A DNA stretch of 25,297 nucleotides from a virus. The position numbers were made by a program, and so were the translations under genes. The stretch is from positions 1 to 25,297 of IMG/VR virus record IMGVR_UViG_3300012926_000016. The stretch is one strand, 5' to 3'. The notes under the pieces are model-generated. The model did not search any database. It worked only from the letters and a program-made list of their open reading frames with translations, and was not told where the DNA came from. This document shows, in pieces, positions 2-19,605 of this stretch (positions within the stretch are counted from its first letter, which is position 1; each line of letters opens with the position of its first letter).

Positions 2-184
2 GAAGATATTCGCCGGACTCTGCGCGATTTAAGCATTGATGAATTCATAGTGTTGCATGAGAAAGCGACCAGTCTGGTTGCGAAACAAATGAAAATTGTT
101 GATGCTGTAATCTACGGATTAGCTTCTCGCCGAGCCGCTGCATTGGCAAAAGAAATGGAAGATAAACTAAATGCGAATGACTGA
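2..184 (+). CDS. C-terminal fragment of a small helical phage protein (partial)
   Basis: The first 60 codons of the window, read from base 2, are open up to a TGA at 182-184. The start lies outside the window. The visible part is charged and predicted helical (IDEFIVLHEKATSLVAKQ, then RRAAALAKEMEDKL), with no cysteines or membrane segment. Its last 14 bases overlap the start of the downstream nuclease gene, so the two are probably translationally coupled and belong to one early operon. Small helical proteins often precede nuclease genes of this type in phages, but I recognise no specific family and assign no function. Confidence 0.6.
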   Translation, partial: EDIRRTLRDLSIDEFIVLHEKATSLVAKQMKIVDAVIYGLASRRAAALAKEMEDKLNAND

Positions 185-1313
185 ACCACCAGACGAACGA
201 GAAGGGTTACCAAGTGCATCGAACTGGCGGCGCTATGAGCTTTGCGCGGGTTCCTGGCAGCTCGAGGGCGAGGCTAAGCAGCTTGGCCAGTCGGCGCATG
301 AGACCAGTCCAGCAGCTAGGCGTGGCGAGCTTATCCATAGCTATCTTGCGGGCGAGGTCGATGAGGACGGCACCGAGATCAAGCTCGATGATTCCGAGCA
401 ACAGACCGCCGATTTTCTCCAGGAGCGTGCAACCGACCAGGTGCACCGGATCTTTGGCGATGAGGCGACTTTAGAATTGGCCGAGAAACGGTTATGGCTC
501 ACCGTCAACGGCCAGAGGCTGGCCAGCGGCCGGTTTGATCGCTGTGTTTATACGCCGAGTGTCGCGTTGGTGCAGGATTTCAAGACCGGTTGGGCGGAGC
601 CTGATCCGGCCGAGCAGAATAGCCAAATGAAGGTCTTGGCGGTGCTGGTGGCGTTGCACTTACCTCGCACCATGCGCAAGGTGGTCATCCAGGTCATTAG
701 CGGGCCGTTCGGGGTGAGCGAGGCAATCTATGACTACCCGGCGCTGGCCAAGGCCTACGATGACGTCCTGGCGACGCTGCGGGCGCTCCAGGACCCGATG
801 GCACCGCTCTCTCCAAGCCCGGAGGCATGCCGGTATTGTCCGGCGATCAATGTGTGCCAAGCGGTCAAGAGTCTTGCCCCAGCGATGAGGGAAGTTGAGG
901 CATTGCCTGACGGTGAGCTCGGTGCCGAATTACTTGATTCCGTGGAAATACTTCAGAAACGGCTGGATTCAATCCGAGAGCATTACGCTAGGCGATTGAC
1001 GGCTGATCCGGCTTACGATTTGCCGGGTTACGCAATGGTGCCCGGCGCAATTCGCCGAGAAATTAAATCAGAGCATTGGGAGGCGGTTCGTCAGCGCTTG
1101 GCCGAGTGGCTGGACCTGTCAGAGATCGAGGCGGCCTCCAATTATCGGCTGATGGATCTGGAGCGCGCGCTGGGCAAGAAGCTCAAGATTCGTGGGAAAG
1201 AACTTAAGGAACGGATGAATGCGATCTTGCAGGGGCTCGTGGAAGAGAAGCCGAATGCAGCCTCGCTCAAAAGAATTTCAAAACCGAAACTGGTCACGCT
1301 CGAGTTGCCGTGA
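171..1313 (+). CDS. PD-(D/E)XK nuclease with Cys cluster (DUF2800/Cas4-like)
   Basis: This 380-residue protein looks like a phage recombination exonuclease of the PD-(D/E)XK superfamily. The N-terminus has the SASNWRRYELCAGS segment (residues 15-28), typical of DUF2800-type nucleases. Next come RRGELIHSYL (50-59), a probable catalytic Asp in SGRFDR (D123), the core DFK (D136, K138) and a following helix with Gln (Q149, Q152). C25 together with C220, C223 and C229 (CRYCPAINVC) makes the one-plus-three cysteine arrangement that binds a 4Fe-4S cluster in AddB/Cas4-like nucleases. The C-terminal 100 residues are helical. In family members such enzymes resect DNA ends for a partner annealing or ssDNA-binding protein. 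The nearest candidate partner here is the gene at 2290. The start codon overlaps the upstream gene by 14 nt. The nuclease fold is fairly certain; end-resection is inferred. Confidence 0.8.
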   Translation: MRMTEPPDEREGLPSASNWRRYELCAGSWQLEGEAKQLGQSAHETSPAARRGELIHSYLAGEVDEDGTEIKLDDSEQQTADFLQERATDQVHRIFGDEATLELAEKRLWLTVNGQRLASGRFDRCVYTPSVALVQDFKTGWAEPDPAEQNSQMKVLAVLVALHLPRTMRKVVIQVISGPFGVSEAIYDYPALAKAYDDVLATLRALQDPMAPLSPSPEACRYCPAINVCQAVKSLAPAMREVEALPDGELGAELLDSVEILQKRLDSIREHYARRLTADPAYDLPGYAMVPGAIRREIKSEHWEAVRQRLAEWLDLSEIEAASNYRLMDLERALGKKLKIRGKELKERMNAILQGLVEEKPNAASLKRISKPKLVTLELP

Positions 1314-2222
1314 GGCGTGGCACTGAGTGATAGGCATGGCAGGCAAGACAGGATGGCAGGGACAGATGGGGTATGGCGAAGAGGCGAGGCAGGTATGACT
1401 AGGAGCGGAGGGGACGGGAGCGTTATGACCTGGCACGGCCTGTTTTGAACAGGTAAGGCAGGCAAGTCCAGGCGCGGCAAGTAAAGATAAGGCGGGGCGC
1501 TGGCGTGGTGAGACTTGGGTTGATGTGGCAAAGACTGGTGCGCTATGGCAGACAAGGTGAGTCTGGGTAAGTCCCGGCACGGTTCGGATTGGTGTGACGA
1601 GGAGCGGCAGGCACGGTCAGGACGCAATGGGAAGGGCGTGTTGCGGATGCGATGGGTCAGGCAAGGCAGGGAGGGGTGTTCTGGTGGGATAAGATTACGT
1701 TTGGTGCGGTTCGGTGCGACCTACTTAGGACAGGCAGGCAGGGTATGGACGGACCTGAAGCGTTCTTGGGCGGGACATGAGCTGGCTTGTCCAGGCACGG
1801 CCGGGAAGCGATAAGGCAAGGCAGGCCAGCTTAGGTTTGGCGAGCTCTGGCGTGGTGAGCTTTGATCTGGTGAGATCGGGTCAGGCAAGGCAGGGCGGCT
1901 CGGAGCGGCTCGGACAGATGCGGCATGGTCTGGCAAGGTCGGTATGGTTGGACCAGGCAGAACGCGGCTCGATGGGGCTGGGCAGGACGGTGCGGCGGGG
2001 ATTGGCGGGACCTATCCTGGCGAGGAGTGGTCAGGACCGGACAGGCACGGCAGGCATGTTAAGGCGCGACCAGGACCGGCACGGGCAGGCTCGGACAAGC
2101 AGTGGTTTGATCGGGTGAGGCCAGGCAAGGATAAGGACGGGCAAGGCAGGCAGGTTAAGGCGAGACTAGGAAGGACTGGGTATGTCCAGATGTGGCATGG
2201 ACCGAACAGGTAAGGTATGGCG
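1314..2222 (+). repeat. Array 1 of degenerate NNNGG pentamers
   Basis: About 900 bases without a convincing gene. The + strand is built of GG dinucleotides mostly 5 nt apart, as in tcaGGcaaGGcagGG or catGGtctGGcaaGG, with phase slips of 1 nt here and there. Common words are GGCAGG, GGCAAGG, ATGGC and GCTCGG. The bias is strong: G-rich, T-poor, with C mostly after GG. Open frames on both strands give low-complexity peptides and start at arbitrary points, so I treat them as by-products. Similar arrays, usually annotated as spurious proteins rich in ARQGE/MARQG-like pentapeptides, are familiar next to phage recombination genes. The array ends just before the hairpin at 2235. Function unknown. 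Runs of GG with 3-nt spacers could form two-tier G-quadruplexes. Confidence 0.75.
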
Positions 2223-2234
2223 GCAGATAGAAAA

Positions 2235-2267
2235 AACCGCTCGGAAAATCAGAATCTCCGAGCGGTT
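2235..2267 (-). terminator. Hairpin with T-run on the minus strand
   Basis: A perfect 10-bp inverted repeat, AACCGCTCGG (2235-2244) and CCGAGCGGTT (2258-2267), encloses a 13-nt loop. Read on the minus strand the stem is followed by six T, the classical intrinsic terminator form. On the + strand it is followed by ATTTAAAAC, which would be weaker. It lies between NNNGG array 1 and the start of the RAMP-like gene, so it may shield that gene, or stop antisense transcripts coming from it. Confidence 0.6.
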
Positions 2268-2289: not shown

Positions 2290-3108
2290 ATGAAACCAAA
2301 AGCGAAACAAGAAAAACAGGTAATTGATATTGTAAAAATTGCAATGGGGCGGCTTAATTTTTGTGTTCTAGGCACAAGCCCGCTTGTGATCAACCGGCTT
2401 GCCGAAAAAGCGCGGCAAGAGTTGCTTTTCCCGGCTCGAAAAAAGAATTCAGCCGAAAGAGCGGTTACCTTAAAGCACAATCCACCGGAAGAGTATCGGT
2501 CTTCTATTTATCAAACCTTGGATGACGCAGCACCGACGCGAATTATTTTTCCGGGTAGTGCGTTTGCCAGCGTGATCGCTGATACCGCAGTCGATATCCC
2601 TGGATCGAGCAGGGCGCAAATGGAGCGGCTTACTCGGGTAGCTGATCTCAACGTCGCGATTTTTGGTGTACCGCGGCTTTATATGGCGGTTGTGAGAACG
2701 CTTGGGATGAATAAAACGCCTGATATTCGTACTCGGGCGCTACTTCCGGAATGGGCGTGCCAAGTCCAGGTTACCTATGTCAAAGGGTTAGTTACGGAAC
2801 GTTCCGTGACGAATCTTTTTGCAGCCGGCGGTACGATCGGCGGCATTGGTGACGGGCGCGGTAAAATGGGGTTTGGCCAATTCCGGTTGGTTCAAGCGAC
2901 CGACAAGGATTTCCAGCGCATCATCAGAACACAGGGCCGAAAAGCTCAAGATGAGGCGATCGAAAATCCGGTGCCATACGATCATGAAACTGAGGATTTG
3001 TACAGCTGGTTCCAGGAGGAACTGGTTATTCGGGAAAAATTAGGAGAGGACGAATCGGCTCCTTTGGTCCGCAGCGGCAACAATGAACCGGTGGAGGAAT
3101 TAGTTTGA
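2290..3108 (+). CDS. RAMP/Cas7-like protein of the phage recombination module (candidate)
   Basis: A 272-residue protein of no family I can name with certainty. The ATG at 2290 is preferred over an in-frame one at 2182, because the longer version would run through NNNGG array 1 and the hairpin at 2235-2267. Three features recall the RAMP (Cas5/Cas6/Cas7) superfamily in the right order: an N-terminal strand ending in LGTSPLVIN (27-35, like the usual TPL segment), IIFPGSAFASVI (85-96, like IPGSSLKGAL), and a glycine-rich loop GGIGDGRGKMGFGQF (184-198, like hGxxRxxGFGxh). The C-terminus (200-272) is charged and helical. It follows a recombination-type nuclease and overlaps the next gene by 4 nt, the position where an ssDNA-annealing or ssDNA-binding protein is usually found. 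A nucleic-acid-binding role is inferred, not shown. Confidence 0.7.
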   Translation: MKPKAKQEKQVIDIVKIAMGRLNFCVLGTSPLVINRLAEKARQELLFPARKKNSAERAVTLKHNPPEEYRSSIYQTLDDAAPTRIIFPGSAFASVIADTAVDIPGSSRAQMERLTRVADLNVAIFGVPRLYMAVVRTLGMNKTPDIRTRALLPEWACQVQVTYVKGLVTERSVTNLFAAGGTIGGIGDGRGKMGFGQFRLVQATDKDFQRIIRTQGRKAQDEAIENPVPYDHETEDLYSWFQEELVIREKLGEDESAPLVRSGNNEPVEELV

Positions 3109-3590
3109 TTACGCAAACGGAAAAACAGGAAGCGATTGGTGCAATTGCCCAAGCTAACGATGGCATAGTAACACCTGATGCGGTTGTCGAGGCGGCCAAA
3201 AATCCGAAACATATTTTGCACGAATGTTTCGATTGGGACGACACAAGTGCTGCATTTAAATATCGGCTGGATACGGCGCGGCACTTAATTGCTTCGATCG
3301 AGGTCCTGGTTGAATATGAGGATCGCACTGTTACGGCGATCTCTTACGTCCACGACGTGCGCCAGGGCAGGCGAGGGCAAGGCTACGTAGGTGTTAATAG
3401 CTTAGTGAAACGGCGTGAAGATGCGCAGCAGACGCTATTAGTTGAGATTGAGAGGATCACGGCCAGTGTTTCCAGGGCTCGCTCAATTGCGTTGGGATTA
3501 GCTTTGGAAACCTATTTTGAAGCGATTTTAACTAATGCGCTTACAGCGAAAATGAGAATCAAGGCAAAACAGGTAAAGAAAGTTGCGTAA
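3105..3590 (+). CDS. Conserved phage protein of unknown function (FDWDD type)
   Basis: The 161-residue product starts at a TTG that overlaps the stop of the RAMP-like gene (TTGA). A strong Shine-Dalgarno GGAGG at 3093-3097 lies 7 nt upstream, which settles this start. The protein opens with a helical region (TPDAVVEAAKNP, 23-34), then HECFDWDDTSAAFKYRL (39-55) followed by ARHLIAS, a basic, glycine-rich stretch (QGRRGQGYVG) and a long C-terminal helix ending in lysines. The WDD plus AR-LI pattern is familiar from uncharacterised phage proteins near recombination genes. Tight coupling to the RAMP-like gene suggests they act together. No catalytic motif is visible. Confidence 0.75.
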   Translation: MITQTEKQEAIGAIAQANDGIVTPDAVVEAAKNPKHILHECFDWDDTSAAFKYRLDTARHLIASIEVLVEYEDRTVTAISYVHDVRQGRRGQGYVGVNSLVKRREDAQQTLLVEIERITASVSRARSIALGLALETYFEAILTNALTAKMRIKAKQVKKVA

Positions 3591-3980
3591 GGGCGGGCCA
3601 AGACACGACCGGTTGAGGCAGGCAGGGCAGGACCTGCACCGGACCGCTGTGGTTAGTTTAGTCCCGATGCGACCTGGGAATGGTATGGCAGGCTCGTTAA
3701 GGATCGATTGGTTTGGGTGTGGATAGGCAGCGCTGCGGCTGGGCGAAGTTGGCTCGGTTCGGTCGGCTTGGGCCCGGCGTGGCAGGTATGGTATGACCGG
3801 TACCGGTCCGGTTCGTCCTGGCAGGGTACGATTTGGAAAAGCATGGCAGGCCCGACATGGCAGGAAGCGGCGAGATCCGGCGGGACGCGGTACGACGAGG
3901 CAGGCAGGGCGGGGCGTAGTTTGGTAAGATGCGGTACGATCCGGCCAGGATGGCTAAGACATGACATGGCAGGCAAATAG
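3591..3980 (+). repeat. Array 2 of degenerate NNNGG pentamers
   Basis: About 390 gene-free bases with the same character as the array at 1314-2222: GG every fifth base, words such as GGCAGGCAGGGCAGG, ATGGCAGG, GGTTCGG and GGTATGG, and a G-rich + strand. It starts directly after the stop of the FDWDD-type gene and ends at a hairpin (3986-4012), as array 1 also ends next to a hairpin. Open frames inside it are low-complexity and lack ribosome binding sites, so none is called. Confidence 0.75.
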
Positions 3981-3985
3981 AGGTG

Positions 3986-4015
3986 CGCCAGGAGTTAGAA
4001 TAGCTTCTGGCGTTT
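3986..4015 (+). terminator. Hairpin, probable weak intrinsic terminator
   Basis: CGCCAGGAG (3986-3994) pairs with CTTCTGGCG (4004-4012) around a 9-nt loop, with one G-U pair, and is followed by TTT. It closes array 2 and precedes the next group of small genes, so it probably separates two transcription units. The short T-run makes its strength uncertain. Confidence 0.5.
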
Positions 4016-4027
4016 CCTAATAAATTT

Positions 4028-4141
4028 ATGACTGATAAACAGAATGAACCCGAACAACTAATCGAGCTGATCGCCGCGCAAACCAGTAGCCTGCTCCGGG
4101 ATCACTGGGCCGACATAACCGAATCACCACTCTGGAATTAA
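4028..4141 (+). pseudogene. Truncated copy of the gene at 4388 (37-codon reading frame)
   Basis: An ATG at 4028 opens a 37-residue frame. EQLIELIAAQTSSLLRDHW is almost identical to the N-terminal part of the protein encoded at 4388-4672 (EQLIELIAAQTSNLLRDHW). The DNA matches at 4051-4114 and 4408-4471 with a constant offset of 357 bases and few differences, so this is a direct duplication. After DHWADI the reading frame departs from the longer copy and stops within nine codons. It may be a decayed remnant of tandem duplication, or a small gene sharing only an N-terminal helix. Confidence 0.6.
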
Positions 4142-4145
4142 AGAA

Positions 4146-4418
4146 ATGACTACCCCCACCGAATCCGGAGCGGCTCCAGAGTCGCTGGACCAAGACCGCA
4201 TCGAACGCCTGGCTGGCGAAATCCTAATGGCGATTCGCAAGAACTACGTCCAAGGCCCCATTAGCCGGGACCGGGTTTATGAGGCGCTCAACGCGCTGGC
4301 CTTCAGCGCCGCTTGGATTATCCGTGGCGCGGGCGATCCCGAAGCGTTGGAGTTCTTTTCAAAAGCACTCAACATGAATCTAACCGAATGCAAAACCCCA
4401 CCGAAACCGAACAACTAA
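4146..4418 (+). CDS. Conserved small phage protein, unknown function
   Basis: A 90-residue protein with ATG five bases after the preceding frame. It begins with a Thr/Pro/Ser-rich tail and then forms a helical core (RIERLAGEILMAIRKNY, 20-36; RVYEALNALAFSAAWIIRG, 43-61), followed by DPEALEFFSKALN. This EALNALA...AA..I.GAGDPEA..FF..AL pattern resembles uncharacterised phage early proteins. There is no cysteine pair, Walker motif or membrane segment. It overlaps the following gene by 31 nt in another frame, which suggests cotranscription. No function is assigned. Confidence 0.6.
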   Translation: MTTPTESGAAPESLDQDRIERLAGEILMAIRKNYVQGPISRDRVYEALNALAFSAAWIIRGAGDPEALEFFSKALNMNLTECKTPPKPNN

Positions 4419-4672
4419 TCGAGCTGATCGCCGCGCAAACCAGTAACCTCTTGCGGGATCACTGGAGGGATATTGATTCCTATCGCGATGGCGATGACGA
4501 AATCAAACTGGCGTTTAGCCATACGCTTTCCTATGAAGGCAGTCAGCGGACCGTTAAAACAACAATCTCTTTCAGCCACCGGATCAAGGACGAGGTCGAG
4601 AAATCAATTAATACCGCGCAGGCGGACTTGCCGCTCAAGGTGACGATGGAGAAACGAGGGGCACCCAAGTGA
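4388..4672 (+). CDS. Small phage protein, full-length copy of the duplicated gene
   Basis: The 94-residue product starts at ATG 4388 inside the end of the previous gene. A more upstream in-frame ATG at 4313 would overlap that gene by more than 100 nt and loses the similarity to the duplicate, so it is not chosen. The N-terminal helix is shared with the truncated copy at 4028. The rest (DGDDEIKLAFSHTL, then TVKTTISFSHRIKDEVEKSI) alternates hydrophobic and polar residues like a beta hairpin plus helix. The stop overlaps the next start (GTGA). I do not recognise the family. DNA-binding or an accessory role is possible but not supported. Confidence 0.6.
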   Translation: MQNPTETEQLIELIAAQTSNLLRDHWRDIDSYRDGDDEIKLAFSHTLSYEGSQRTVKTTISFSHRIKDEVEKSINTAQADLPLKVTMEKRGAPK

Positions 4673-10221: not shown

Positions 10222-10274
10222 GAGTGAACGGGCTCCCGAGGCCTAAAAACCTCCGCGCCACCCTTTTTTTCGCC

Positions 10275-10724
10275 ATGGCACGACCAAAAGCTCCTATTGA
10301 CGCTAAACGGGTTGAGGAGCTCGCTGCCTTAGGGTACACCGCCGAAGATATCGCCGCCGCGGTTACCCCTCCAGGCAAGCCATCAATCAGCCATCGAACC
10401 GTCGAAAAACGTTTCAACCCTTTTTTAAAAAAGGGTCGTTTAAAATTGGCCGGCGTTCTCAAGCGGGAGTTGATTAATCAGGCGGTCGCCGGCAATACCA
10501 CAGCGCTGATTTTTGCGCTCAAGATTCACTGCGCTTACAGAGAGCAGCCTGACACCGTGATCAACGTTTCAGCGACTGCCGCCGGCGGCTCGATTCAGTT
10601 CAGCGCTGAAGACCGGAAACGGCTCGAGGATCTAGCCGCCGATATCCGGCAACGCGTCTTTAAGCGTTCAATCCCAACCCCCGAACTCGCCCCTAGTGGA
10701 AACGGCGACGTCACTCAGAATTGA
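10275..10724 (+). CDS. terS: Terminase small subunit (DNA recognition)
   Basis: A 149-residue protein starting at ATG 10275 (MARPKAP). An in-frame GTG at 10224 would add an odd N-terminus and lies inside the junction with a repeat copy, so it is not used. Residues about 12-29 (RVEELAALGYTAEDIAAAV) form a helix-turn-helix. The central LKRELINQAVAGNTTALIFALKIHCAYRE resembles the oligomerisation region of small terminase subunits, which bind pac/cos DNA and hand it to the large subunit. It overlaps the TerL start by 29 bases in another frame. The call rests on position and pattern. Confidence 0.75.
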   Translation: MARPKAPIDAKRVEELAALGYTAEDIAAAVTPPGKPSISHRTVEKRFNPFLKKGRLKLAGVLKRELINQAVAGNTTALIFALKIHCAYREQPDTVINVSATAAGGSIQFSAEDRKRLEDLAADIRQRVFKRSIPTPELAPSGNGDVTQN

Positions 10725-12686: not shown

Positions 12687-12925
12687 GCACCGTCATATCA
12701 ACAATCAGTATTCGTATGTTAAAAACTGTGGTGCCAGACTTCCCTTTTGCAGTTAATGCCCGGACTAGGCTTTTGGCCAATACCCTATATGGCGCTACTA
12801 GTAACAGTCTGGGGGCGGTTTGCGGGATATGTGATAATGGAGAATTGCTCGGCGTTAAACCTGGAGAGTTTGAGTTTGTAGAAGCACCAGAGTGGTTGCT
12901 TTCAATCCATAAACTGAAGCAATGA
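12683..12925 (+). CDS. Small conserved phage protein, unknown function
   Basis: This 80-residue protein starts at an ATG overlapping the preceding stop. The central part (ARTRLLANTLYGATSNSLGAVCGICDNGELLGVKPGEFEFVEAP in three adjacent blocks) looks like a compact alpha/beta domain with two cysteines (CGIC) that are too few for a zinc site. It shares an operon with methylase-related genes and overlaps the next start, so a role in DNA modification is possible but not shown. Confidence 0.6.
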   Translation: MSTVISTISIRMLKTVVPDFPFAVNARTRLLANTLYGATSNSLGAVCGICDNGELLGVKPGEFEFVEAPEWLLSIHKLKQ

Positions 12926-13275
12926 GCCGCCTCCAAATATTGACCGGCGATTGCCGCGATATTCTGCCGACGCTGGAGCCGGAGAGCGTACAGACCATGG
13001 GCGTTTCGGCAATACGCAACAAGCGCTCCGTCTGGACGGTCGCCACCCAACCCTACGGCGATGCTCATTTCGCAACGTTCCCCGAGGACCTGATCAAGCC
13101 GTGCATCTTGGCCGGCAGCCGTGTCGGCGACACCGTGCTCGATCCATTTGCCGGTAGTGGCACAACCGGCAAGGTGGCGCTCGAGTTCGGCCGTAAAGCG
13201 ATCCTGATCGAGCTGAATCCGGCTTACATCGAACTAGCCGAGGATCGGACCTTTGTTACCCCAGGGTTTCTATGA
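12922..13275 (+). CDS. Internally deleted N4/N6 DNA methyltransferase
   Basis: The 117-residue product joins the two ends of a phage beta-class DNA methylase. Residues 1-24 (RLQILTGDCRDILPTLEPES) are the usual N-terminus. Residues from about 32 (RNKRSVWTVATQPYGDAHFATF...) include the SAM-binding motif I, VLDPFAGSGTTGKVALEFGR, followed by AILIELNPAYIELA. The middle, which should carry the catalytic (D/S)PPY motif IV and over 100 residues, is absent, yet the frame stays open. Such a protein could bind SAM but cannot be a normal methylase, so it is a decayed or repurposed gene. It overlaps both neighbours by four bases. Confidence 0.8.
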   Translation: MSRLQILTGDCRDILPTLEPESVQTMGVSAIRNKRSVWTVATQPYGDAHFATFPEDLIKPCILAGSRVGDTVLDPFAGSGTTGKVALEFGRKAILIELNPAYIELAEDRTFVTPGFL

Positions 13276-13388: not shown

Positions 13389-15395
13389 ATGATTAAACAC
13401 GTCATTATTTGGCTCTTTCTGGTGGCCGGTTTGGCTGCGACTAAAGCCTTTGATTCTCATGGTTGGGTGACTACGCCTCCGGATAATTCGGTTTGTTCGG
13501 CCACCTGCAATATGGGCAATGGAAAAGCCTGCGGCACGCACGGGTGCGGAAATCCGAACTGTGGATGCAGCGGGACAGCGTTGCGGCAGGTGATCTATAA
13601 CCCGAGCGATGCGTCTTCGAGTCCAACTGCGCCTGAGGTGAGCGAGCCCGAAGGGCCGACGGTCCCCAGCGAAACACCGGAGGAGGGTGATGGCAGCAAA
13701 CATCTTGGGCCGGCGGCGATCATCGGCCACTTGGTTATCAATGGGATTCAAAAACGTAACCAGCCTCCGAACTTCCTCGTGATCTTTGTCGATGACCTGG
13801 GCTGGGACAATATGTCTTGTTATCATCGCGGGTTAATGGGCAGCAAGACCCCGAACTGCGATCGCATAGCTAAAGAGGGTGCATTGTTCACTGATTTTTA
13901 TGGACAAAACTCATGTACGGCAGGCCGTTCGGCGTTTATTACCGGGATTAGTCCATTCCGGACCGGGTTGCTGAAGGTAGGATTGCCGGGAGCCAAAGAG
14001 GGTATCCAGGCTGGTGATCCAGAATTACCGGAGCTACTCAAGCCGCTCGGTTACGTTTCAGCCCAGTACGGCAAGAACCATCTTGGCGATCGGAATGAAT
14101 TTTTGCCCACTGTTCACGGGTTTGATGAGTTCTTTGGGTTCCTCTATCACTTGAATGCAATGGATGAGCCTTACGAGACTGATTATCCGAAAGATCCGGC
14201 CTTTTACGCCAAGTACGGTCCGCGTGAGGTGTTGGATTGCAAAGCCAGCCGCACTACCGATCGCACTGAAGATCCGCGTTGGGGTGTGATTGGTAATCAG
14301 AAGATTACCAATGGAGGACCGTTAGCACCAAGTCCTGAAACACCGGTGCCTTCGTTCTTAAAAAAGGGCAATTATTTCCAGACGACTTACGAGGAGACGC
14401 TACTCGAGCGGAGCGAGGATTTCATGAAGCGGCAGGTCCGGCGCGGCAATCCGTTTTTCCTATGGCACAACATGGCCCGGATGCATATCTGGACTCACCT
14501 AGATGACAAGTGGAAGGGAAAATCCGGTTACGGCCTATACGCCGATGGCATGCTCGAGGTCGACTACATTGTGGGTGAGTTGCTTAAGACGCTCGATGAG
14601 CTCAAGATCACTGATAATACGGTAGTCATCCTGACGAGCGACAATGGCGCGGAAATGATGAGCTGGTCTGATGCTGGCAATACACCGTTTCATAGCGAAA
14701 AAGGTACTACATGGGAAGGTGGGTTCAGGGTACCGATGATTGTTCGCTGGCCGGGAGTGATTCCTGCCGGCAAGACGATCAACGACTTTTTTAGCATGGA
14801 AGACTGGGTGCCGACGCTGTGCGATGCGGCAGGTAACTCAAAAATCACTGAGCAACTTTTGAAAGGTAAAAAGTTCGGTGACAAGACTTATAAGGCGCAC
14901 TTAGATGGTTACGATCTGGTACCGTACTTCGCGGCGCTAGACAATCGCCGGCCTGGCAAGCAAGTCCCGAGTCCGCGTCACGAGATGTTTTACTTTAGTG
15001 ATAACGGCGTGATGTGTGCGCTCAGGGATGACGATTACAAGATTAACTTCAAGATCTATGAAGGCAACTTGATGACCGGGGTGGTGATTCAGCAGAATGC
15101 GCCGACGATTATCAATCTGCGCGATGATCCTTACGAAAAATATCCGCACGAAGCTTGGGATTACACGCACTGGTTTGTTGAGCATGTCTGGTCGATGTAT
15201 CCGGCTGGGCCTATTATTGGTAAATTCATGGCGACATTTCAGGAATATCCGCCGAGCCAGGCGCCCGGGGAATGGAGCGCCGAACCGCAGCCGACTGGTG
15301 CAGAAACGCTTGGGAGCCGGTATTACAAGCGCGGGATGGAATCTATGCAAGAAGATTTAAATACGGTTTCACAAGGTGAAGTACCGAGTGATTAG
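13389..15395 (+). CDS. Secreted type I sulfatase (formylglycine type)
   Basis: A 668-residue sulfatase of the alkaline-phosphatase superfamily that would hydrolyse sulfate esters outside the cytoplasm. Residues 1-20 are a Sec signal peptide (cleavage after ATKA). C36, C40, C48, C53, C58 and C60 form a Cys-rich segment, followed by a Pro/Glu-rich linker. The catalytic domain begins near 127. FVDDLGW gives metal ligands D135/D136. NSCTAGRSAF holds C176-x-A-x-R180, the motif whose Cys becomes formylglycine. YGKNHLG contributes K229/H231, and TSDNGAE gives D418/N419. FHSEKGTTWEGGFRVP supplies K438 and the EGG turn. All key residues are present, so it looks active if the host has a maturase. It lies between terminase and lysis genes, an unusual place, and no maturase or sulfate-uptake gene is nearby. 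Substrate unknown. Confidence 0.9.
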   Translation: MIKHVIIWLFLVAGLAATKAFDSHGWVTTPPDNSVCSATCNMGNGKACGTHGCGNPNCGCSGTALRQVIYNPSDASSSPTAPEVSEPEGPTVPSETPEEGDGSKHLGPAAIIGHLVINGIQKRNQPPNFLVIFVDDLGWDNMSCYHRGLMGSKTPNCDRIAKEGALFTDFYGQNSCTAGRSAFITGISPFRTGLLKVGLPGAKEGIQAGDPELPELLKPLGYVSAQYGKNHLGDRNEFLPTVHGFDEFFGFLYHLNAMDEPYETDYPKDPAFYAKYGPREVLDCKASRTTDRTEDPRWGVIGNQKITNGGPLAPSPETPVPSFLKKGNYFQTTYEETLLERSEDFMKRQVRRGNPFFLWHNMARMHIWTHLDDKWKGKSGYGLYADGMLEVDYIVGELLKTLDELKITDNTVVILTSDNGAEMMSWSDAGNTPFHSEKGTTWEGGFRVPMIVRWPGVIPAGKTINDFFSMEDWVPTLCDAAGNSKITEQLLKGKKFGDKTYKAHLDGYDLVPYFAALDNRRPGKQVPSPRHEMFYFSDNGVMCALRDDDYKINFKIYEGNLMTGVVIQQNAPTIINLRDDPYEKYPHEAWDYTHWFVEHVWSMYPAGPIIGKFMATFQEYPPSQAPGEWSAEPQPTGAETLGSRYYKRGMESMQEDLNTVSQGEVPSD

Positions 15396-17601: not shown

Positions 17602-19605
17602 ATGGCTGCTAATCCTAACGCCGTCGATACCACCAAGCCCGAAGCGCTCGTTCCGGACACGGCGACTACGCCCGTCACCGAACCGCTGATTCAGGTCGAA
17701 GTTCAGGATCGGCTGTTGAGGGAATTGAAGCGGCGTCTGTTCCCGAATGACGTCGAGGGCATCCTCTATTCGGCCATCGTTGGCGACCTCTACTGGCAGG
17801 ATCAGCTCTGGAGTTTAATGGTGGATACTTGGCCGCGGCTACAGACCAACTTGGGCAAACTGAAGCAGTCGGTCTCGGGCATGGAGTTTGCCGTTACGCC
17901 GTATGCCGAAGCTGACAATGAACCGACTCCGAGTGCGCTCGAGAAAGCCGATTTCGTTAAGACGGCGCTCTTCGGCATGCACGGCGATGTTGCCTTCCAG
18001 CAGCATGATTTTAAAGAGACGCTTGAGGATATTATCGACTCGATTGTGGCCGGGTTCACCGTGCTGGAGGTTTACTGGGAACAGCGCGATGGCGGGATCA
18101 TGCCGCAGTGTACCCGGTGGCTGCCGGCCAGATACTATCGGTATCCGTACGTGCTCGACGACGTCGACCGGTTGATGCTTAACCCCAGCGGAATGCTGGG
18201 CGGTACGCAACTGGTTGATTTTCCCCCGTACAAGTTTCTGGTCTGCATCAAGCAAAGCCACGCCAACCATCCGGTGTTTACGGCACCGATGCGTACGCTG
18301 ACCGCCTGGTGGATCGCCTCCCGCTTCGGCCTTGAATGGTTCATGACGTACGCGCAGCTCTTCGGGATTCCGAACCGGATAGCGTACTATCAGCCAGGTG
18401 ACGACATCGTGTACCAGAAACTGGTTCAGATGATGCGCCAGAGCGCGGCGGCAACCTGGGGCGTTTATCCCAAAGGCACCGAGGTCAGTATAACGAGCGC
18501 AGCCGGGGGTACGAGCGGCCACCTGCCGCAGGAACGCCTGATCGAAGAGGCTGATAAGGTCTGTGACATCATGCTCTTGGGCCAGACACTTACAACCGAG
18601 GTCCGCGAAAGCGGCGGCAACCGTGCGCTGGGCACGGTCCACCGCAAGGTGATGGACGAAGTAATGGAGGCCGCGGCCAAGTACGCGGCTAAGATCATCA
18701 CGACCCAGATCATTCCTGGGATCGTTATTTACAATTTCGGCGAGGCGACCGAGCTGCCGACTTTGGTGCCAGTAGTCAATTCTCCGATCGATTTGTTCAA
18801 CTTGGCTCAGGCCTACAATATCCTCTTTAATCAGATGAAAATTCCTGTCCTGAACAAGGAACTCTATGCCCGGATCGAGTTTACGCCGCCGGAGGATGAC
18901 GACGATGTTTACGAGCCACCCGCGGCACCGCAGCCGCCTACTAACCCGTTCGGGTTACCGCATCCACAACCGGAAGGCGTCAGACCAGAACCGGCCGGAG
19001 CGCCTTTCGACCGAGCTCAGGGTAAACCTAATGGCAGCAAGGAACCAAGGGCTAAACCTAATATCGTGGAGCGGGTGGGCGCTGCTGGGCTTGGGGACGC
19101 TGATTGTTGTGACCCTCTTTTTGATGGTGATGGCGAGGGTGCGGATGGAGTCGCTGTTCCGGCTCGCAAGGTGAGTTTTGCCTTAAACTACGGCGAGGAA
19201 CCGGAACCTGGCGAGGTCTTAAGGTTTTTGGAGAAGGCCAGCTCTGAGCTTGTCGAACGAGTCGAGGCGCGTGAACACGGTGTAACGACGGTGCTTGAGC
19301 CGAAGCAGCTGGACCGGTCGGCGGCCGAGGCGGCCATGTCGCATGACACCGCCCAATATTTCCGGGAAAACGCGGTGACTATCAAGGGCGTGAAGTGGAA
19401 ATCCATCATCGACGATCGGACCACGCCTGAGTGTGCGGCGCTCAATGGCAAGCGGTGGACCTACCCGGATTTGAAGCCGATTGGCCACGATTTAGCATTC
19501 CCCGACTTTCCGCCGATCAAGTACAATTGCCGTTCGAGCGTGATGCCGGTCTTGAAGACGTGGCCGCAGATCCAACAGTGGCTCAAAGGGATCTTTAAGC
19601 GATGA
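17602..19605 (+). CDS. DUF935 portal protein (Mu gp29-like) fused to MuF-like head protein
   Basis: A 667-residue two-part protein. Residues about 30-430 match the Mu gp29/DUF935 portal family: EGILYSAIVGDLYWQDQLWS, DIIDSIVAGFTVLEVYWEQRDG and LLGQTLTTEVRESGGNRALG are typical. The portal forms the DNA entry ring. Residues about 525-667 resemble the end of Mu gpF minor head proteins, with IIDDRTTPECAALNGKRW and PPIKYNCRSSVMP. The two are joined by a Pro/Gly-rich linker (430-525) with FDRAQGKP, a peptide typical of reading through the dispersed TTCGAC repeat. In Mu these are separate genes. The MuF half lacks much of its usual N-terminal part. The embedded frame at 19031 lies in this linker. Confidence 0.88.
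   Translation: MAANPNAVDTTKPEALVPDTATTPVTEPLIQVEVQDRLLRELKRRLFPNDVEGILYSAIVGDLYWQDQLWSLMVDTWPRLQTNLGKLKQSVSGMEFAVTPYAEADNEPTPSALEKADFVKTALFGMHGDVAFQQHDFKETLEDIIDSIVAGFTVLEVYWEQRDGGIMPQCTRWLPARYYRYPYVLDDVDRLMLNPSGMLGGTQLVDFPPYKFLVCIKQSHANHPVFTAPMRTLTAWWIASRFGLEWFMTYAQLFGIPNRIAYYQPGDDIVYQKLVQMMRQSAAATWGVYPKGTEVSITSAAGGTSGHLPQERLIEEADKVCDIMLLGQTLTTEVRESGGNRALGTVHRKVMDEVMEAAAKYAAKIITTQIIPGIVIYNFGEATELPTLVPVVNSPIDLFNLAQAYNILFNQMKIPVLNKELYARIEFTPPEDDDDVYEPPAAPQPPTNPFGLPHPQPEGVRPEPAGAPFDRAQGKPNGSKEPRAKPNIVERVGAAGLGDADCCDPLFDGDGEGADGVAVPARKVSFALNYGEEPEPGEVLRFLEKASSELVERVEAREHGVTTVLEPKQLDRSAAEAAMSHDTAQYFRENAVTIKGVKWKSIIDDRTTPECAALNGKRWTYPDLKPIGHDLAFPDFPPIKYNCRSSVMPVLKTWPQIQQWLKGIFKR
19006..19020 (+). 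repeat. Dispersed TTCGAC-AGCTCAG repeat, copy 3 (in portal-MuF linker)
   Basis: TTCGACCGAGCTCAG, in frame with the portal gene, where it encodes FDRAQ. The same peptide is common in proteins of repeat-rich genomes, so this is likely an insertion of the element rather than ancestral sequence. Confidence 0.65.
19031..19174 (+). CDS. Possible overprinted 47-aa membrane protein in the portal linker
   Basis: A second frame inside the portal-MuF gene opens at ATG 19031 and stops at 19174. The peptide has one clear membrane helix (WALLGLGTLIVVTLFLMVMA) and a basic end (RVRMESLFRLAR), a plausible single-span protein. The overlying main frame at this point is a low-complexity linker, so an overprinted or former separate gene is possible. 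No ribosome binding site is evident. Confidence 0.25.
   Translation: MAARNQGLNLISWSGWALLGLGTLIVVTLFLMVMARVRMESLFRLAR
19244..19257 (-). repeat. Dispersed TTCGAC-AGCTCAG repeat, copy 4 (at start of MuF part)
   Basis: CTGAGCTTGTCGAA on the + strand, the reverse complement of TTCGACAAGCTCAG. It encodes SELVE in the portal-MuF gene and lies about 220 bases from copy 3 in opposite orientation, so the pair brackets the linker. Confidence 0.65.

Follow-up and report, generated by a model that had tools for sequence, protein, structure and literature searches.

The presence of a RAMP/Cas7-like gene in a phage genome raises the question of what such a protein does outside a CRISPR system. The gene, named vipr below, lies in the window, which is the whole stretch of 25,297 nucleotides analysed here (IMG/VR virus record IMGVR_UViG_3300012926_000016). 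In an earlier note on this DNA it was proposed that its product stands in for the annealing protein of phage recombination. Our analysis points to another answer, namely that the locus is very probably a VIPR (Viral Interference Programmable Repeat) system of a tailed phage. VIPR was first described in a 2026 preprint, in which it was proposed as a CRISPR forerunner, and it consists of a RAMP homologue (Vipr), an accessory gene (vap) and vrRNAs of alternating GGY/NN (PMC13142463). The NN pairs of the vrRNA read DNA with a one-base skip, which is normally the codon wobble position, and the VIPR complex represses competing phages (PMC13142463). The features of the locus are collected in Table 1.

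Table 1. Positions of the vipr and vap-like genes, the flanking arrays and hairpins, and the neighbouring exonuclease gene in the window.
Feature	Position	Strand	Basis
PD-(D/E)XK recombination exonuclease, outside the VIPR cassette	171..1313	+	PF12705, PF10926, phrog_69
Upstream vrRNA-type array	1316..2225 (about)	+	Lag-5 periodicity, HMM parse
Perfect inverted-repeat hairpin at the end of the upstream array	2235..2267	.	RNA fold
vipr, RAMP/Cas7-like protein, 272 aa	2290..3108	+	AlphaFold2, Foldseek, family profile, phrog_4652
vap-like accessory protein, 161 aa, phrog_15946	3105..3590	+	Pairing with vipr
Downstream vrRNA-type array	3590..3980 (about)	+	Lag-5 periodicity, HMM parse
Hairpin GCGCCAGGAG...CTTCTGGCG at the end of the downstream array	3984..4012	+	RNA fold

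The vipr ORF has an ATG start, and its stop codon is counted in the coordinates. Its product carries the three motifs that had been matched by eye in the earlier note, in the same order: LGTSPLVIN, then IIFPGSAFASVI, then the loop IGDGRGKMGFGQF. The product was aligned with 98 dereplicated homologues of 24-60% identity, drawn from IMG/VR, five Gordonia phage records and six genome loci. G28 in the first motif and G185, G187, R190 and G196 in the loop were invariant in this alignment, as were D145, R147 and W155, between the first motif and the loop. Given this conservation across homologues, the alignment indicates that the three motifs are more than a chance resemblance.

The AlphaFold2 model made with the 98 homologues had a RAMP fold (pLDDT 91.5, pTM 0.84). 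It has an RRM-type core, and its G-loop lies between helix 170-183 and strand 198-201. The Foldseek matches to the PDB listed at E<=0.001 were Csm3/Cas7-type CRISPR RAMPs, with a best E of 1.4e-5. The family profile built from the same homologues matched 36pp_D, the 'SUSP1 Vipr protein', in the G-loop region (E 2.3e-7), a similarity that spans only about 49 residues. In PHROGs the product matched phrog_4652, a family annotated as function unknown (E 9e-12); searches with the single sequence gave zero matches in Pfam, PADLOC and PDB chains. Genome contigs yielded zero loci in a first scan and six loci with the deeper alignment. The lack of an RRM core, or a match to RecT or Erf, had been named in advance as grounds against the fold assignment. 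Structure prediction gave an RRM core, and no RecT, Erf or Rad52 family or fold was matched by the vipr product in Pfam, PHROGs or the PDB. The predicted structure therefore confirms this part of the earlier note, a RAMP/Cas7-like protein outside CRISPR, in a phage.

vipr is the first gene of an obligate pair, the second being the vap-like gene, which has a TTG start and overlaps the vipr stop codon. The RAMP gene and its downstream partner each served as a seed, and together they recovered 162 loci, some of which overlap on one contig. Of the 162 loci, 160 had both genes on the same strand, and the second gene was downstream of vipr within 1.5 kb in 156 of the 160 paired loci. The surroundings of the pair are variable, with an exonuclease gene in the window, integrase and repressor genes in the Gordonia phage UmaThurman and in locus L004, tail genes in ODay, and portal and capsid genes in locus L005 (the neighbours in L004 and L005 were identified by reading their translations). 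The AlphaFold2 model of the vap-like protein had a pLDDT of 94.6 and no confident fold match in the PDB, and in Pfam no family was common to more than a few members of the vap-like family.

The pair is bordered on each side by a non-coding tract in which GG appears at 5-nt intervals on the coding strand. In the upstream tract of the window, GG autocorrelation was 2.4x at lag 5 and 0.16x at lag 7. A periodicity scan detected a same-strand array touching the pair in 152 of the 162 loci and one array on the opposite strand, and it detected zero arrays in 13 unrelated IMG/VR loci. A five-state HMM trained on 179 arrays emitted G (0.92), G (0.79), C/T (0.87) and then N, N. In the window, the upstream array starts directly after the stop codon of the exonuclease gene and contains degenerate G[G/A]YNN units, forming about a dozen guide-length segments that are set apart by 4-nt slip units, mostly GGCA. 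The downstream array has the same grammar and about 7 segments. Array lengths and positions differ between loci. Since the constant partners of vipr are a vap-type gene and GGY/NN arrays, the locus was assigned to VIPR.

Two statements of the earlier note have to be qualified in the light of these arrays. The nuclease that it placed beside the gene was identified correctly (PF12705 at E 3e-11; phrog_69 at E 4e-26) but is not directly adjacent, because the two genes are 976 nt apart, with the array filling most of that distance. Its statement that no CRISPR array or other cas gene is visible held in the tests run: no CRISPR repeats were found in the window, no Cas family was matched by the vipr and vap proteins in Pfam, PHROGs or PADLOC, and the sole Cas-like match in the window was a weak one of the exonuclease to Cas4 (E 0.0024). 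The guide-type GGY/NN arrays on both sides had, however, gone unnoticed. They were also missed by Tandem Repeats Finder run on the window, because two of every five positions vary.

Each array end has one hairpin. The folding energy was -22.1 kcal/mol (z -3.5) for the RNA of 2200-2290 and -23.4 kcal/mol (z -3.2) for that of 3960-4040. A terminator-like match on the minus strand was found by the scan at the upstream hairpin, which could be a terminator or a 3' structural element. No repeated vrRNA tail was found in the window, and a search of its first 12 kb and of 10 other loci gave no hammerhead or other Rfam RNA. Seven VIPR types are described, including those with staggered overlapping and hammerhead-interspersed arrays, and the invariant structured 3' vrRNA tail was shown for type II, the SUSP1 clade (PMC13142463). 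As the tail was shown for this type and architectures vary by type, its absence bears on the type and not on VIPR membership.

How the guides are delimited is suggested by slips in the register. Inside the window arrays the register slips one base at GGCA/GGC (the slash marks the slip), the direct repeats found in the window, all of them short, mostly have this GGCAGGC slip at their centre, and most of the long segments have 8-18 units. Across all arrays, GGCA accounted for 862 of 1,695 4-base units, and the distance from one GGCA to the next had a non-random peak at 10-13 units. From this sequence pattern, the GGCA/GGC slip probably marks guide boundaries. In two of the genome loci (L278 and L279) the slip reads GGCG/GTC in place of GGCA/GGC. 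A more tentative proposal, which we consider rather doubtful, is that the arrays are continuous, with neither spacer nor tail, and that the one-base slip (in either form) both shifts the register and bounds each guide. If true, a bare register shift would be a mode of delimiting guide RNAs that is absent from the main text of PMC13142463. The phase-slipped continuous arrays may correspond to what the preprint terms 'staggered arrays', in which vrRNAs overlap.

The one-base-skip code was examined without the preprint data, on the premise that each NN pair corresponds to the first and second base of a codon. For 9,714 units, the KL divergence of NN from codon positions 1-2 of phage genes was 0.053 bits, compared with 0.13-0.39 for the other five frames, and the frame of codon positions 1-2 was the best in 500/500 bootstraps. 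When the frames were mixed freely, the same units were assigned 77% to sense 1-2, 23% to antisense 1-2 and 0% to every other frame. For the 228 units of the window itself, the sense 1-2 frame was the best by 11.6 bits, and the free mixture gave 73% sense 1-2 and 27% sense 2-3 in what is too small a sample on its own. Across this branch, the codon signature confirms the one-base-skip code in an independent and reference-free way.

Searches for targets were carried out with the same skip. Guides read with the one-base skip gave 54 near matches in 2.8 Mb of nonredundant phage DNA, compared with about 29 for shuffled guides, and single matches were individually near chance. Matches spanning at least 11 units numbered 12 with the one-base skip and 1-4 with skips of 0, 2, 3 and 4; three of the 12 are one guide on homologous vipr genes, and the count leaves out matches to loci fetched with a window seed. 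In four loci, namely L280 (a prophage of Paraburkholderia adhaesiva), L076, L276 and L010, there are guides that spell conserved stretches of vipr in frame; for example, the guide-encoded V-V-R-[IM]-A-[DE]-P-[NK]-[SR]-T-P-[DE]-[IM] corresponds to the vipr family motif VVRSADMNRTPDV. Out of 3,000 shuffles, those as good numbered 0 for L280, 0 for L076, 1 for L276 and 2 for L010, counts which are uncorrected for the choice of these four as the best or most striking of about 790 runs. Such anti-vipr guides support conflict of phage against phage.

Paraburkholderia adhaesiva has two VIPR loci on separate contigs (L280 and L282), and a guide of L280 (7422-7491) resembles the vipr gene of L282 at 21/26 read bases, in frame. 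This anti-vipr guide of the Paraburkholderia locus L280 reached at best 5 mismatches in 26 on the second vipr of the same genome and 4 on the vipr of other phages, and no match with <=3 mismatches was found in 399 genomes of that family. An array guide of L147 matches a 372-aa ORF on its own contig (G045) over 13 units with few mismatches (with L262), which could possibly be a self-match or protection against relatives.

For the window itself, exact one-base-skip patterns of three guides gave zero matches in the viral contigs collection. An 8-unit seed from a fourth guide gave 13 matches, none of which reached into the flanking units; the count is close to chance expectation for a collection holding an estimated 50 Gb or so. 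Comparison of the window guides with Vipr and Vap gene profiles gave chance level.

These results bear on the possibility of a degenerate or domesticated VIPR locus, in which the protein is intact, the arrays are decaying and the function has been lost. This could explain why zero targets were found and why the window units, many of which read GAC, GTT or GGA, are more degenerate in the HMM parse than those of other loci. We regard it as improbable, however, as both genes are intact and conserved, the 11.6-bit preference for the codon frame persists in the window units, and a second contig (L002), 99.6% identical to the window, shows only two changes within the arrays.

Much less credible is an explanation of the arrays as a low-complexity or G-quadruplex-prone site for replication, packaging or recombination, perhaps bound by the RAMP protein, with NN holding no guide information. 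GG every 5 nt does resemble the pattern of a two-tetrad G-quadruplex, the length and position of the arrays vary, and the guides of the window have no confirmed target. Such a site does not account for the signature of codon positions 1-2 in NN, with zero weight in four other frames, for guides that spell vipr motifs in frame, or for regular slip units 10-13 units apart; moreover, expression and programmability have been reported for the related arrays of SUSP1 (PMC13142463).

Recruitment of a Cas7-like fold as a Red-type single-strand annealing protein acting with the adjacent exonuclease, as put forward in the earlier note, is equally hard to credit and was rejected on the evidence of neighbourhood and family: the upstream gene does encode a PD-(D/E)XK exonuclease, RecT, Erf and Sak matches were absent among the window proteins scanned, and the L280 prophage has what appears to be a YqaJ-like exonuclease downstream of its array, but relatives of the window exonuclease occur in only 8 of the 162 loci (several being overlapping copies of one phage), UmaThurman carries its own RecE and RecT elsewhere in addition to the pair, the constant companions of vipr are the vap gene and the arrays, and the protein has a Cas7/Csm3-like fold with a profile match to Vipr. 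The adjacent exonuclease is incidental to VIPR.

Assignment to VIPR also agrees with the described properties of the system. The locus has the RRM core with a G-loop, a sequence relation to Vipr, vipr with one vap gene, and long intergenic flanks in which GGY is conserved and NN is hypervariable. VIPR guides have 9-16 units, a range that includes the 10-13 unit peak of slip distances, and the one-base skip at the wobble position on both strands was found at the level of the family.

The fold, gene pairing, arrays and their strand, phase-slip spacing and codon-position signature were observed in the present analysis; by analogy with the SUSP1 experiments of the preprint, RNA processing, assembly of the RNP, DNA binding, repression and the function of vap may be added as follows. 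Vipr, a single-domain RAMP, would polymerise along short RNAs released from the arrays on either side, with one protomer for each 5-nt GGY/NN unit. GGY would be held by the protein, while the two N bases would pair with one strand of the target DNA. Each unit would therefore read two target bases and skip one, so that about 10-13 units would cover about 30-40 bp, and the skipped base would be the codon wobble position in coding targets. Guides would lie head to tail in long arrays, with a one-base phase slip, and not structured tails, as the apparent boundary. A gene bound in this way in a competing phage or prophage would then be repressed, the vipr genes of such rivals being among the targets, and the vap-type partner would be expected to strengthen this repression.

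The window adds a well-populated VIPR branch in uncultivated phages, with hundreds of IMG/VR contigs. Standard annotation misses such systems, as the protein falls in no Pfam family and the tandem-repeat finder is blind to the arrays.

Other features were seen in the remainder of the window. A 63-bp duplication (4046-4108 and 4403-4465, 92% identical) is apparently the same gene start present twice. A Mu-type portal (PF06074) and a Mu F-like head protein (PF04233) are fused in one ORF at 17602-19605, in the same phage as a small-terminase-like gene at 10224-10724. A DNA methyltransferase fragment of 117 aa (12922-13275; phrog_67, phrog_3008) is probably truncated. Between this fragment and the structural genes, a 668-aa sulfatase (13389-15395; PF00884, E 1e-53) looks like an auxiliary metabolic gene.

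When compared with known systems, annealers of the RecT/Erf/Rad52 type share only the neighbouring exonuclease with this locus and differ from it in fold, partners and family. The backbone RAMPs of type III CRISPR, Csm3/Cas7, are alike in having an RRM core and a G-loop; unlike these systems, the window has no cas operon, its arrays have a period of 5 (GGY/NN) and are not repeat-spacer arrays, and the TM-scores to Csm3/Cas7 are only 0.29-0.42 by query length. Among other VIPR types, the preprint describes hammerhead-interspersed arrays (PMC13142463), whereas no hammerhead was found in the first 12 kb of the window. The closest known system is the type II VIPR of the Escherichia phage SUSP1 (PMC13142463; PDB 36pp; KT454805 28031-29061). 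The Vipr of the window is larger, with 272 aa and a C-terminal helical extension compared with 195 aa in SUSP1, and no relation between the two accessory proteins was detectable. The window arrays are continuous over 0.4-0.9 kb with GGCA/GGC slips, whereas SUSP1 has discrete vrRNAs of about 100 nt with repeated tails; the units of the window are also more degenerate than those of SUSP1. In both systems, which are phage-borne, a small RAMP gene has an accessory gene behind it on the same strand, a CRISPR array and cas genes are lacking, and non-coding tandem-repeat arrays of GGY/NN lie upstream and downstream. The VIPR of the window is therefore a further member of this recently described system.
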